Shown piece after piece: positions 40,096 through 64,000 of a DNA stretch of 64,000 bases (its first letter is position 1; each line of letters opens with the position of its first letter). Position numbers and translations under genes: made by a program. The notes under the pieces are model-generated. The model was not told where the DNA came from. It did no database searches and saw only the letters and a list, made by a program, of their open reading frames with translations. This DNA comes from Ottowia flava (lineage in GTDB: Bacteria > Pseudomonadota > Gammaproteobacteria > Burkholderiales > Burkholderiaceae_C): NCBI RefSeq assembly GCF_008017535.1, contig NZ_VRUA01000001.1:186001-250000 (forward strand), written 5' to 3'.

Positions 40096-40470
40096 TTAGT
40101 TGCTGGCAGCGCTGGCAGCGGCGGTAGCAGCGTCAGCGGCAGCGCTGGCGGCAGCACCCACAGCGGCGGCGGCGGCGGCACCAGCGGCATCGGCAGCAGA
40201 ACCCACGGCGGCACCAGCGGCCGACGCGGCATTGCCAGCGGCAGACGCAGCACCGTCCACAGCAGCACCGGCGGCGCTGGCAGCGTTGCCGGCGGCGGTG
40301 GCAGCAGAGTCAGCTGCGCTCGCGGCGGCGTCGGCGGCGCTGGCAGCGGAATCAGCGGCAGCAGCGGCAGCAGGCGCTTCCGGAGCAGGCGCAGGAGCCT
40401 CTTCCTTCTTGCCGCAGGCGGCGAGCGAAGCAGCGGCGATCAGGGCGGCCAGAACGAGCGATTTATTCAT
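40096..40470 (-). CDS. Alanine-rich lipoprotein with internal repeats
   Basis: A 124-residue lipoprotein (lipobox LAAC, then GKKEEAPAPAPEAP). After the linker, nearly the whole chain is Ala with periodic Ser, Asp, Gly and Asn. A 17-18-residue unit is repeated (GNAASAAGAAVDGAASAA then GNAASAAGAAVGSAADAA), predicting a continuous Ala-rich helix. A good GAGGACC ribosome site and a strong terminator suggest a highly expressed single gene. Function unknown; helical periplasmic rods such as Lpp-like spacers are only an analogy. Confidence 0.8.
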   Translation of the reverse strand: MNKSLVLAALIAAASLAACGKKEEAPAPAPEAPAAAAAADSAASAADAAASAADSAATAAGNAASAAGAAVDGAASAAGNAASAAGAAVGSAADAAGAAAAAAVGAAASAAADAATAAASAASN

Positions 40471-52865: not shown

Positions 52866-52917
52866 CAGCCTTCCGCGCTACAACCATCTGCGCAGGCAGC
52901 TATATAAAAGATAGCTG
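52866..52917 (-). repeat. Dispersed repeat, copy 16
   Basis: Minus-strand reading TAGCTGCCTGCGCAGATGG, then TTGTAGCGCGGAAGGCTGATTG. It lies between the convergent TM2 and pit genes. Confidence 0.9.
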
Positions 52918-60916: not shown

Positions 60917-61939
60917 ATGACCCGTCTGCCCGCCGAGACACGCCAGCGCATTGCCGAGGTGGCCAGCCACGTGCTGATGGTGGGCGCACTGCTGCTGATC
61001 ATGTGGCAGAGCCTGCTGCCGGGTCTGCTGTGCGTCTGTCTGGGCTTTTTGAGCACACGCTGGTTCAGCCCCAAGCTGGCTGTGCTGACCCGCGCGCCGG
61101 ATGGCGAGGCCCCGCGCTTTGCCGCCGCCGTGGTCGCGCTGTTGCCGGTGCTGCTGCTGGCCATCGCCCTGCCGCGCACGCGCGGGTTGATTCTGGATGC
61201 GCCGGCGGTGTACCGCGACCTGCTGGGGTTTCTGGCCCGCACGGTGCTCGAATTCCGCGAAAAGCTGCCGACCGACCTGGCCACCCAACTGCCCGAAGGC
61301 GCGGCAGAGATCCAGCACGTCATCGCGGCCTACCTGGCCAGCAAGGCTGGCGCCATGGCCACCACCGGGCGCGCCTGGCTGGTCGGCCTGCTGTTCGCCT
61401 ACGTCGGGCTGCTGATCGGCGCGCTGGCGGCAGCGCGGCCCAGCGCCTTCGACCTGCGCCCGCTGGCGGCGCAGCTGCACCTGCGCCTGACGCGGTTTGG
61501 TGAAACCTTTCGCCAGATCGTGGTCGCGCAGTTCTGGATCGCGCTGTTCAACACCTGCCTGACCGCCATCTTCCTGCTGGTCCTGTTGCCGCTGACCGGC
61601 AACAAGCTGCCCTATTCCATGGCGCTGATCCTGCTGACGTTCGTGGCCGGGCTGGTGCCGATCGTGGGCAACCTGCTGTGCAACGCCGTGCTGACCCTGG
61701 TCGGCCTGTCAGTCTCCCCCAGCGTCGCGCTGGTCTGCCTGGCGTTCCTGGTGCTGATCCATAAGGCCGAATACTTCATCAACGCCAAGGTGATCGGCCA
61801 CCGCACCCATATGGGCGTGTGGGAGTTGCTGACGGTCATGTTCGTGATGGAAGCGATCTTCGGCCCACCTGGCCTGGTGGCCGCGCCGCTGTTCTACGCC
61901 TACTTCAAAAAAGAGCTGCAGGCGGCGGACTGGGTGTAA
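60917..61939 (+). CDS. AI-2E family transporter (PerM-like)
   Basis: A 340-residue inner-membrane protein with about eight TM helices, the central amphipathic region and the C-terminal LIHKAEYFINAKVIGHRTHM and ELLTVMFVMEAIFGPPGLV-like conserved end of the AI-2E/PerM family. It follows purM by 54 bp, as in related genomes. Despite the family name, the transported compound is unknown. Confidence 0.9.
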   Translation: MTRLPAETRQRIAEVASHVLMVGALLLIMWQSLLPGLLCVCLGFLSTRWFSPKLAVLTRAPDGEAPRFAAAVVALLPVLLLAIALPRTRGLILDAPAVYRDLLGFLARTVLEFREKLPTDLATQLPEGAAEIQHVIAAYLASKAGAMATTGRAWLVGLLFAYVGLLIGALAAARPSAFDLRPLAAQLHLRLTRFGETFRQIVVAQFWIALFNTCLTAIFLLVLLPLTGNKLPYSMALILLTFVAGLVPIVGNLLCNAVLTLVGLSVSPSVALVCLAFLVLIHKAEYFINAKVIGHRTHMGVWELLTVMFVMEAIFGPPGLVAAPLFYAYFKKELQAADWV

Positions 61940-62317
61940 CCACTGGCCGCTCGGGCGTCGAATGGGCCGCACCCGACGACACGTTCTGGCTGAGTCGGTC
62001 TTCAGATCGGCGGCTTTGCCATCAACGGATAGCTGGTCGTGCCAATCGCTTCAAGACCGGCGCTCGAAAAGCTGCTGCATGGGGTATTGGGACGCTGCTG
62101 CGTTTCCTGAGCTAAGCGAATTTTCTTAGCAAGACGGACCCGAGATCGCGGACAACCCGCTTGCTCCGCCAGCCGCCCGCAAATGTGCGCACTGAGAAGG
62201 CGGCCCGAACACTTTCGACACTGCGCGCAGGTTCCGACATCGGGCCACAGTCCGCACTGGATGCCGCTCGCACTCGAGCGCGCGACACGACAACGGCAGT
62301 TCACGCCCTGCCATTAC

Positions 62318-62375
62318 TACCAAAACAATAGCTGCCTGCGCAGATGGTTGTAGCGCTGGAGCCCGATATCTACCC
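62318..62375 (+). repeat. Dispersed repeat, copy 19
   Basis: Core 62329-62369 reads TAGCTGCCTGCGCAGATGG, then TTGTAGCGCTGGAGCCCGATAT; close to consensus. It lies between the AI-2E permease gene and the surface-protein promoter region. Confidence 0.9.
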
Positions 62376-62636
62376 AATCCTCGCAGCGAACACAAAGGCT
62401 TGGCCGCCGCAGGCGGCGAAGCATGGCGTCACCCAGGTTCCTTGGTCCAAAACGCTTTTTTTGCAGTGGCAGTTTCCCTGCACCGCACTGAAGACATTCG
62501 CCGTTTGGACATTCCCCCGCTTGCAGTGGTCATTTTCCACATTTGAATTCTTTTATCTCAAAGTAATTCTTATTTACTACTTATATCGACAAGTCTTGCT
62601 GATTGATTGTCGTAATGAGCCATTTTTTAACGTCTT

Positions 62637-62642
62637 TATAAT
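62637..62642 (+). promoter_or_regulatory. Possible -10 element of the surface-protein gene
   Basis: A perfect TATAAT stands 37 bp before the start codon in an AT-rich stretch. No good -35 hexamer is seen at 16-18 bp, so an activator or another sigma factor may be involved. Confidence 0.4.
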
Positions 62643-62678
62643 ATTAAAGTGCTACTCACTATCAACCAGGAGGTGGGT

Positions 62679-64000
62679 ATGCGCAGGATTGTGAAAATGT
62701 GCCGAAGCAGTTGGCGGCTGGCTCCATGGATGGCCGCGGCAGCAGTGCTGGCGTGGTCCGGCACAGTCTTCGCCGCTACGACCGGCACCGGTCAGGGCAC
62801 TGGCCTGCGAGCGACGGCTTCGGTGGCCGGTGTTGGTCTGGGCGTCCCTCTGGGAGACACCGGTTTGCGTACGGCGCCCGCGGATTTCAACAACAGCCAG
62901 TCAACGGTGGACGCTCAGGTCACCGCGGGTTCATTGCTGAATGTGACCGCCGGCGTGGTCAGTGGCGCCACGCAAAGCGCCTTGGCATTGAACCAGGTCA
63001 GCTCAACCGGTGGCGTGACCAATTTGAATCTGAGTCTGGTCAATGCCGACATCATCCCCCTCAGCCTGCTCAAGGTAACGGCCGATGCTGTCAGCTCCAA
63101 TGCCACAGTCGTCTGCAGCGGTGGCAGTCCGGTCGCTACCGGCAGCACCACCATCACGAATCTCAAAGTCACCGGCCCGCTCGGCTTGAACGTTCCGGTA
63201 ACCATCAATCCGACCGGCCCCACGGTCGTCAACGTGGCGGGCGTCGCCACGCTGACCATCAACGAGCAAACCGCGATCCCGAGTGGCCTGGTGGTGAACG
63301 CGCTGCACCTGGAGATCAATGTGCTGAACATCAATGCTGATGTGGTGATCGGACATTCGCGGGCGAGCATGCCCGATTGCGCGGCGGCCGCTGGCTCCGT
63401 GACCATCAGCGTTCCGAACATCAACGCCAGCAATCAGGGCGCAGTCCCGGTTCAAGGTTTGTGCACCTACGGCGGCGGTACCGTGACAATCACTTCCGAC
63501 CCGGCGATCGCTCCCGTCACCGCCGCCTGCACGCCGGCGGGAACCTACAGCGTGAACGCCAATGCCACAAGCCTTGCGAACGGCAACGTGACCTTCACAG
63601 CGACTCAGGATACGGCGACCGCCAGCACCACGGTCACCAAGGCCACCACAGCTAGGCTGCCGACGGTGACGGTGGACACGCCCGCCACCCCGATCTCTTA
63701 CGCCAACCAGGGCAGCTACGGGCCGATTACCGGCACCTGCAGTGAAACCGGCCAACCCGTCGCGGTGAAGGTCGGGACGGTGGACGTGCCCGGCGTCTCC
63801 TGTCTGGCCAGTGGCACATGGACAACCGGCCCGACGCCGCTCAATCTGACCACCTTGCCCGATGGGCCGGTGCTTATCACCGCGTCGCAAACGGATATCA
63901 ACGGCCGCACGGGCAGCGGCTCGGCCACGGTCAACAAGGACGCCACACCACCGGTCGTCACCATCGTCACGGCACCGGCCATCAACGCCACCAATGCGGG
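62679..64000 (+). CDS. Large secreted protein (choice-of-anchor-P-like, Ig-like repeats), truncated by window
   Basis: The frame is open from the ATG at 62679, preceded by AGGAGGTGGGT, to the right edge: 440 codons without a stop. A signal peptide ends VFA (residue 32). Residues 40-235 form a beta-rich domain (TLTINEQ at 191-197, NALHLEINVLNINADVVIGH at 207-226) resembling choice-of-anchor P family proteins. From about 236 on, Thr/Val/Ala-rich Ig-like modules begin; one spans roughly 328-422 with ITGTCSETGQPVAV and SGTWTTG. Paired Cys may form disulfides. The C-terminus, which would show an IPTL/PEP-CTERM or other anchor, is outside the window. Confidence 0.82.
   Translation, partial: MRRIVKMCRSSWRLAPWMAAAAVLAWSGTVFAATTGTGQGTGLRATASVAGVGLGVPLGDTGLRTAPADFNNSQSTVDAQVTAGSLLNVTAGVVSGATQSALALNQVSSTGGVTNLNLSLVNADIIPLSLLKVTADAVSSNATVVCSGGSPVATGSTTITNLKVTGPLGLNVPVTINPTGPTVVNVAGVATLTINEQTAIPSGLVVNALHLEINVLNINADVVIGHSRASMPDCAAAAGSVTISVPNINASNQGAVPVQGLCTYGGGTVTITSDPAIAPVTAACTPAGTYSVNANATSLANGNVTFTATQDTATASTTVTKATTARLPTVTVDTPATPISYANQGSYGPITGTCSETGQPVAVKVGTVDVPGVSCLASGTWTTGPTPLNLTTLPDGPVLITASQTDINGRTGSGSATVNKDATPPVVTIVTAPAINATNA

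Follow-up and report, generated by a model that had tools for sequence, protein, structure and literature searches.

A predicted secreted Ig-repeat protein of Ottowia flava with a divergent sorting-type tail and cysteine-paired repeats

The gene that crosses the right edge of the analysed Ottowia flava DNA encodes a predicted secreted protein with repeats, of a type already known from bacteria, in which two points are unusual: a divergent sorting-type tail and a pair of cysteines in every repeat. The window, i.e. the whole stretch of 64,000 nucleotides that was analysed (G000:C1:186001-250000), belongs to a genome of 4,118,950 bases in 53 contigs. Our preferred interpretation, to which as a complete proposal we give a probability of about 0.45, is that the product would leave the cytoplasm by the Sec route and act as a surface or matrix protein, its divergent tail serving for sorting by the exosortase XrtH.

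The original prediction, made from the window alone, described an unfinished 440-codon frame with a ribosome site, a signal peptide, a choice-of-anchor P-like domain and Ig-like repeats, and it was borne out on each of these points. The frame starts at the ATG at 62679 (+ strand), preceded by GGAGGT, and runs without a stop for 440 codons up to the window end. Instead of an early stop without further repeats or anchor, extension to the right in the same genome revealed five repeats in all and a C-terminal sorting-type tail, with the stop reached 904 bases beyond the window (G000:C1:250904, or 64904 in window numbering), so that the full protein has 741 residues. Since the frame continues to this stop and matches two domain families, NF040603 and NF033510, it is a real coding sequence.

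The protein opens with a signal peptide and a choice-of-anchor P domain; five Ig-like repeats come next, and it closes with the tail VPVPVGGLWAALALLATGVLGLRRRRQAAA, itself built of a motif, a hydrophobic helix and arginines. The signal peptide, MRRIVKMCRSSWRLAPWMAAAAVLAWSGTVFA/ATT, was read by eye from the translation and covers residues 1-32 (62679-62774, + strand). The limits of the other domains, all on the same strand, were set by hand: the choice-of-anchor P domain spans residues 33-238 (62775-63392; invariant cysteines 146 and 234), repeat 1 residues 239-325 (63393-63653; cysteine pair 262/284) and repeat 2 residues 326-422 (63654-63944; cysteine pair 354/375). Repeat 3 (residues 423-514) begins at 63945 and passes the window end at 64000; its remainder, repeats 4 and 5, the tail and the stop lie beyond, up to 64904 (L002). 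The choice_anch_P model NF040603 scored 60.2 bits against a cut-off of 27, with residues 131-230 as its best stretch, and the Ca_tandemer model NF033510 scored 80 bits against a cut-off of 50, in five stretches, the best being 320-411. Neither an RTX family nor one linked to type I secretion turned up when the protein was scanned against family models. A very weak match to the LBP/BPI/CETP family (E 0.025), seen for one of the four homologues described below, could be due to chance. Two terminator-like hairpins lie 3' of the stop, which is a weak signal, as the region has 5 such sites versus 3.0 expected.

Three relatives of the protein, 46-55% identical to it, were found in genomes that the search tool places in the same genus: Ottowia thiooxydans DSM 14619 (G028), an Ottowia metagenome bin (G011) and a Comamonadaceae bin (G009). 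A single-protein query of the contigs found no relative, and these three were retrieved with an alignment query. All four genus homologues have five repeats. They share twelve invariant cysteine columns, of which each repeat contributes two and the N-terminal domain the remaining two. In the present protein the repeats measure 87-97 residues within their hand-set limits. As a control we read, in the match frame, 15 places from a profile search of 399 family genomes (L020-L033, L040). In fourteen of these unrelated repeat matches the aligned part is free of cysteine, which argues that the cysteine pair marks the family of the present protein; the exception, L031, has two cysteines, but in a 70-residue match with two stops. 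Each pair may form a disulfide.

The repeats resemble the stalk domains of long adhesins. By sequence profile the closest solved structures are 6xi3 (1.8e-11) and 5irb (0.0033), both from long adhesins, and a Foldseek search with a model of the G011 homologue placed 4p99, 6xi3 and 5irb first. The TM-scores over this whole model were low (0.16-0.24) because of the uncertain relative positions of its domains. The N-terminal domain lies mostly below pLDDT 50 in both models, and ten-residue blocks of the Ig repeats lie mostly at 70-94, with a few blocks at 54-57 in the second model. The protein thus shares tandem Ig-like repeats and its best sequence and fold matches with the Ca2+-stabilised adhesin extenders (NF033510; 4p99, 6xi3, 5irb), from which it differs in the cysteine pair per repeat, in having only five repeats and in giving no hit to an RTX or type I secretion family.

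The DNA upstream of the gene had been predicted to be much more AT-rich than the rest of the window, and this was found to be so. The stretch 62551-62650 (26% GC) is the lowest among all 100-base stretches of the window taken in steps of 10, and only one of the twelve lowest stretches, at 40461 (37%), lies elsewhere. This AT-rich region (62521-62678, + strand) contains the expected TATAAT at 62637-62642, followed by the GGAGGT before the ATG. A consensus scan requiring both sigma-70 hexamers gave no match on the + strand, so that the TATAAT marks only a putative promoter. A sigma-54-like site matching 9 of 12 positions, 212 bases upstream, was rejected: counting both strands, the window contains 53 that match at least as well, and upstream of the three genus homologues no site of this quality was found. 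Over the 160 bases 5' of the gene the GC content is 34% in this genome and 50, 36 and 33% in G011, G028 and G009. Such AT-richness does not look common to XrtH substrates, as ten IPTL-CTERM loci of this genome showed 43-66% GC upstream (160 bases). These ten remained from 20 of 21 loci fetched, for which a rough rule assigned a start in 11 and none in nine, and from the 11 of which L159 was dropped for its wrong frame. Further upstream lies the dispersed repeat that had been noted before, a copy of an element of about 40 bases (ATAGCTGCCTGCGCAGATGGTTGTAGCGCT..., 62328-62367, + strand) with 8 further partial copies in the window (E < 0.1). The best of these is at 52875-52903.

The gene is patchily distributed at a fixed place. 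It was found in four of the 29 genus genomes (G000, G009, G011, G028), and in two of the 17 whose completeness reaches 90% with no more than 5% contamination; a gene universal and invariant in the genus would have looked different. The suggestion of a variable protein thus holds for its presence and not for its repeat number, constant among the homologues. In all four carriers the gene sits between an AI-2E family transporter gene (here 60917-61939, + strand; PF01594, 44 bits over 34.3), found in 25/29 genus genomes, and a transglutaminase-like/TPR gene. For a comparison of this slot we took larger stretches from 20 genomes, the window's own included; the right flanking gene lay within the stretch in 12, and four of these 12 slots hold the Ig-repeat gene. 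Just 120-224 bases separate the flanks in G012, G018 and G001. The slots of G003, G027, G016 and G025 contain frames resembling the isochorismatase and HTH regulator of G011, the one genome in which Pfam named these two; that of G011 itself contains isochorismatase, regulator and Ig-repeat gene together, and that of G007 other frames. Across the genus, then, the slot is variable: empty, with isochorismatase and regulator, with the Ig-repeat gene, or with both.

In the window, 62133-62177 (+ strand) resembles the gene for isochorismatase in G011, G016 and G025 (L094, L103, L106; blastn, 75-78% over 44-46 bases), at the place and in the orientation expected relative to the left gene, and its protein-level score was equalled by 2 of 300 triplet shuffles. 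These approximately 45 bases are therefore a probable decayed piece of isochorismatase, and the isochorismatase gene has apparently disappeared from the slot in the lineage of this genome. In the opposite direction, tblastn detected no remnants of the Ig-repeat gene in seven non-carrier slots.

Outside the genus, the profile search matched 17 of the 399 family genomes, the own genome among them. Apart from the latter, G375 and G173 are the sole genomes whose match begins in the N-terminal part, and the remaining genomes align from query position 321 on, i.e. in the repeats. No plasmid or phage relatives were found at E 1e-5. The frames of G375 and G173 have 1350 and 1264 codons (stop to stop), with 6 and 5 GxC...C pairs by a simple pattern, and they possess a different C-terminal region, ending without the helix-arginine tail. 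Both ends (L091, L092) carry two copies of a GTWVISxELNGKxGRGM... region, which has no Pfam match. With the choice-of-anchor P family our protein shares the N-terminal domain, over the cut-off, but its relatives are uneven in this respect: NF040603 matches two of the four genus homologues (the second being, by elimination, that of G011) and the G375 protein (62.6 bits), and misses those of G028, G009 and G173 at E <= 1. The C-terminal ends of these relatives differ as well, with the helix-arginine tail in the genus and the other region in G375 and G173.

The tail motif can be written as VPxGGx(W)A and lines up approximately with IPTLxxWG. In the four homologues V-P-x-G-G, one A, L-L, T-G and R-R are invariant, and three of the four tails have P, four residues and W, as in IPTLxxWG, the G011 tail being without W. 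In the genome of the window most IPTL tails read VPTLxxW(G/A). Exosortase sorting via IPTL-CTERM had been mentioned in the original prediction as occurring at times in such proteins; a sorting-type tail and exosortase genes are indeed present, but TIGR04174 matched neither the protein nor its isolated tail, and none of the four tails at E up to 10. PEP_CTERM (TIGR02595; cut-off 16) gave 16.4, 18.5 and 18.9 bits for the isolated tails of G000, G009 and G028; the G011 tail was unlisted, as were all the whole proteins at E <= 1, and the tails have no PEP motif. For MYXO-CTERM (TIGR03901) the four tails scored 12.6, 10.5, 21.4 and 13.1 bits against a cut-off of 20, only G009 passing. The MYXO-CTERM motif is reported to have an invariant cysteine (PMC11980579), and none of the four tails contains a cysteine. 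We judge these weak PEP_CTERM, LPXTG_anchor and MYXO-CTERM matches to be of a size that any helix with arginines can give.

A score matrix built from 19 IPTL tails of this genome (20 fetched, L159 dropped) allowed a finer comparison. For the motif part, the tails scored 7.0 (G000), 4.0 (G011), 10.2 (G009) and 10.2 (G028), compared with 5.4-27.1 for the IPTL tails left out one by one and -4.6 to 1.1 for eight tails of proteins encoded next to XrtQ; the G011 motif falls below every left-out IPTL tail. For the helix part, the four tails (-15.4 to 2.3) lie below all IPTL tails (3.6 and up), and the totals of -8.4, 3.4, 5.8 and 12.5 reach at most about the minimum seen for IPTL tails (12.2). For the G000 tail, placing the register two residues earlier gives a higher score (0.8) than the one proposed. 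A VP(V/A)GGxWA DNA pattern occurred in the 399 genomes, which include only six of the genus and none of the other three carriers, at 19 places in 17 genomes, versus 26 for a control pattern, and of the 19 places only the Ig-repeat gene has the motif as a tail. A profile search with the tail gave 23 places in the same genomes, some of which could not be read as tails, and one other readable VPVGG tail, that of G106, which reads VPVGGGAW, has its W shifted by one residue towards the C-terminus and reaches a motif score of -4.5 in the IPTL matrix.

The search for exosortase genes, proposed together with the original prediction, yielded two in this genome: XrtH (contig 4; 214.5 bits against a cut-off of 86, with the XrtH-associated membrane protein) and XrtQ (contig 51). 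There are also 21 IPTL-CTERM loci above the cut-off. XrtH is above its cut-off in 25/29 genus genomes, and in 52/399 genomes of the family; being so common in the genus, its presence there says little. XrtH was found in three of the four carriers; in G009, the remaining one, 36 IPTL-CTERM matches were obtained at a genome completeness of 78%. Among 11 selected genomes, the seven with XrtH and G009 have 19 to 59 IPTL-CTERM matches each, and G014, G018 and G007, the other three genus genomes that lack XrtH, have none. XrtQ occurs in eight of the 11 (G000, G003, G009, G011, G028, G014, G018, G106). In all seven genus loci inspected (L003, i.e. G000:C51:147943-151728, L132-L134, L136-L138) it adjoins a protein whose tail, STPEPxxWAAM, is strongly conserved; the G106 counterpart reads SAPEPQVWGAM. 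The neighbour in this genome, the only one tested in this respect, is a VWA-type protein with a PEP-type tail and a VWA sortase-target family match below the cut-off.

Which enzyme, if any, reads the VPxGGx(W)A tail can be approached from these data. Co-occurrence fails to separate the two exosortases, since XrtQ is found in all four carriers and in G106, the latter also having XrtH; it suits XrtQ at least as well as XrtH. Moreover, G375 and G173, whose homologues are without a VPxGG-type tail, have XrtH and give no Exosortase_EpsH match, and the XrtQ-neighbour tails share with the VPxGG tails P, four residues and W-A. Nevertheless, we consider recognition by XrtQ quite unlikely: XrtQ and its STPEPxxWAAM neighbour give the impression of an enzyme dedicated to one substrate, a matrix of the XrtQ-neighbour tails gives the five VPxGG tails scores of -23.9 to 1.5, and the non-carriers G003, G014 and G018 have XrtQ as well. 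XrtH is preferred on account of the motif register, its many and varied substrates and the way in which XrtQ seems tied to its neighbour, although the case for it over XrtQ is modest. The presence of XrtH in G106, compared with 52/399 family genomes, also speaks for it; against it stand the missing IPTL_CTERM match and the homologues without such a tail in the XrtH genomes G375 and G173.

More doubtful still is the reading in which a rhombosortase cleaves the tail as a GlyGly-CTERM-like signal. GG is invariant directly before the helix and GlyGly_CTERM (TIGR03501) was the best listed match for the G011 tail, but its scores of 13.0 (G011) and 8.2 bits (G009) are below the cut-off of 15.5, with G000 and G028 unlisted, and the GlyGly-CTERM motif is often SGGS, without a conserved VP. 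Elsewhere a rhombosortase is often near its target, within one gene in 16/21 single-target genomes (PMC3237569), and neither flanking gene here is a rhomboid or a sorting enzyme; for a many-substrate enzyme like XrtH, no sorting enzyme in the flanking genes is what would be expected. The tail might also be a plain, unprocessed inner-membrane anchor, leaving the protein facing the periplasm. The similar scores of the PEP_CTERM, LPXTG_anchor and MYXO-CTERM models, some above their cut-offs, mean that much of the tail signal is helix and arginines, and we give this explanation roughly one chance in five; against it, the VPxGG part shows no less conservation than the remainder of the tail, in proteins that share as little as about 46% identity.

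Sorting by XrtH would proceed as follows. The signal peptide would take the protein into the periplasm, and the C-terminal helix and arginine cluster would hold it in the inner membrane, where an exosortase, most likely XrtH, would recognise VPxGGx(W)A and cut off the tail. The protein would then be passed towards the cell surface or the extracellular matrix, with the five Ig-like repeats as a short stalk, stiffened perhaps by one disulfide each, the choice-of-anchor P domain at the outer end and a putative adhesive or matrix role. Our protein has in common with the IPTL-CTERM/XrtH system (TIGR04174, TIGR04177) the signal peptide, a motif-helix-arginine tail in about the same register and XrtH in the genome, and differs in reading VPxGGx(W)A, versus VPTLxxW(G/A) in most IPTL tails, with no model match. 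That such proteins can reach the surface is indicated by the S-layer protein of Methylomirabilis lanthanidiphila, which has an IPTL-CTERM tail (PMC8671808). A PEP-CTERM protein takes part in floc formation of an Aquincola strain (PMC9850573). The literature covered, with few subscription papers in it, yielded nothing on exosortase H, Comamonadaceae exosortases or disulfide-bearing bacterial Ig-like adhesin extenders. A bolder idea, that VPxGGxWA is an unrecorded Ottowia sorting signal with its own recognition, and that the Ig stalk with its cysteine pairs, built by redox chemistry, stands in for extender repeats stabilised by calcium, seems to us unlikely.

The specificity of exosortases is known mainly from sequence motifs. 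A tail approximately in the IPTLxxWG register with other letters, in genomes that have XrtH and XrtQ together, is therefore a natural test of enzyme recognition. The relatives outside the genus, which share the head and the repeats and have another C-terminal end, constitute a clear case of a changed anchor, and an adhesin stalk may here be stiffened in another way, by a cysteine pair in every Ig repeat.
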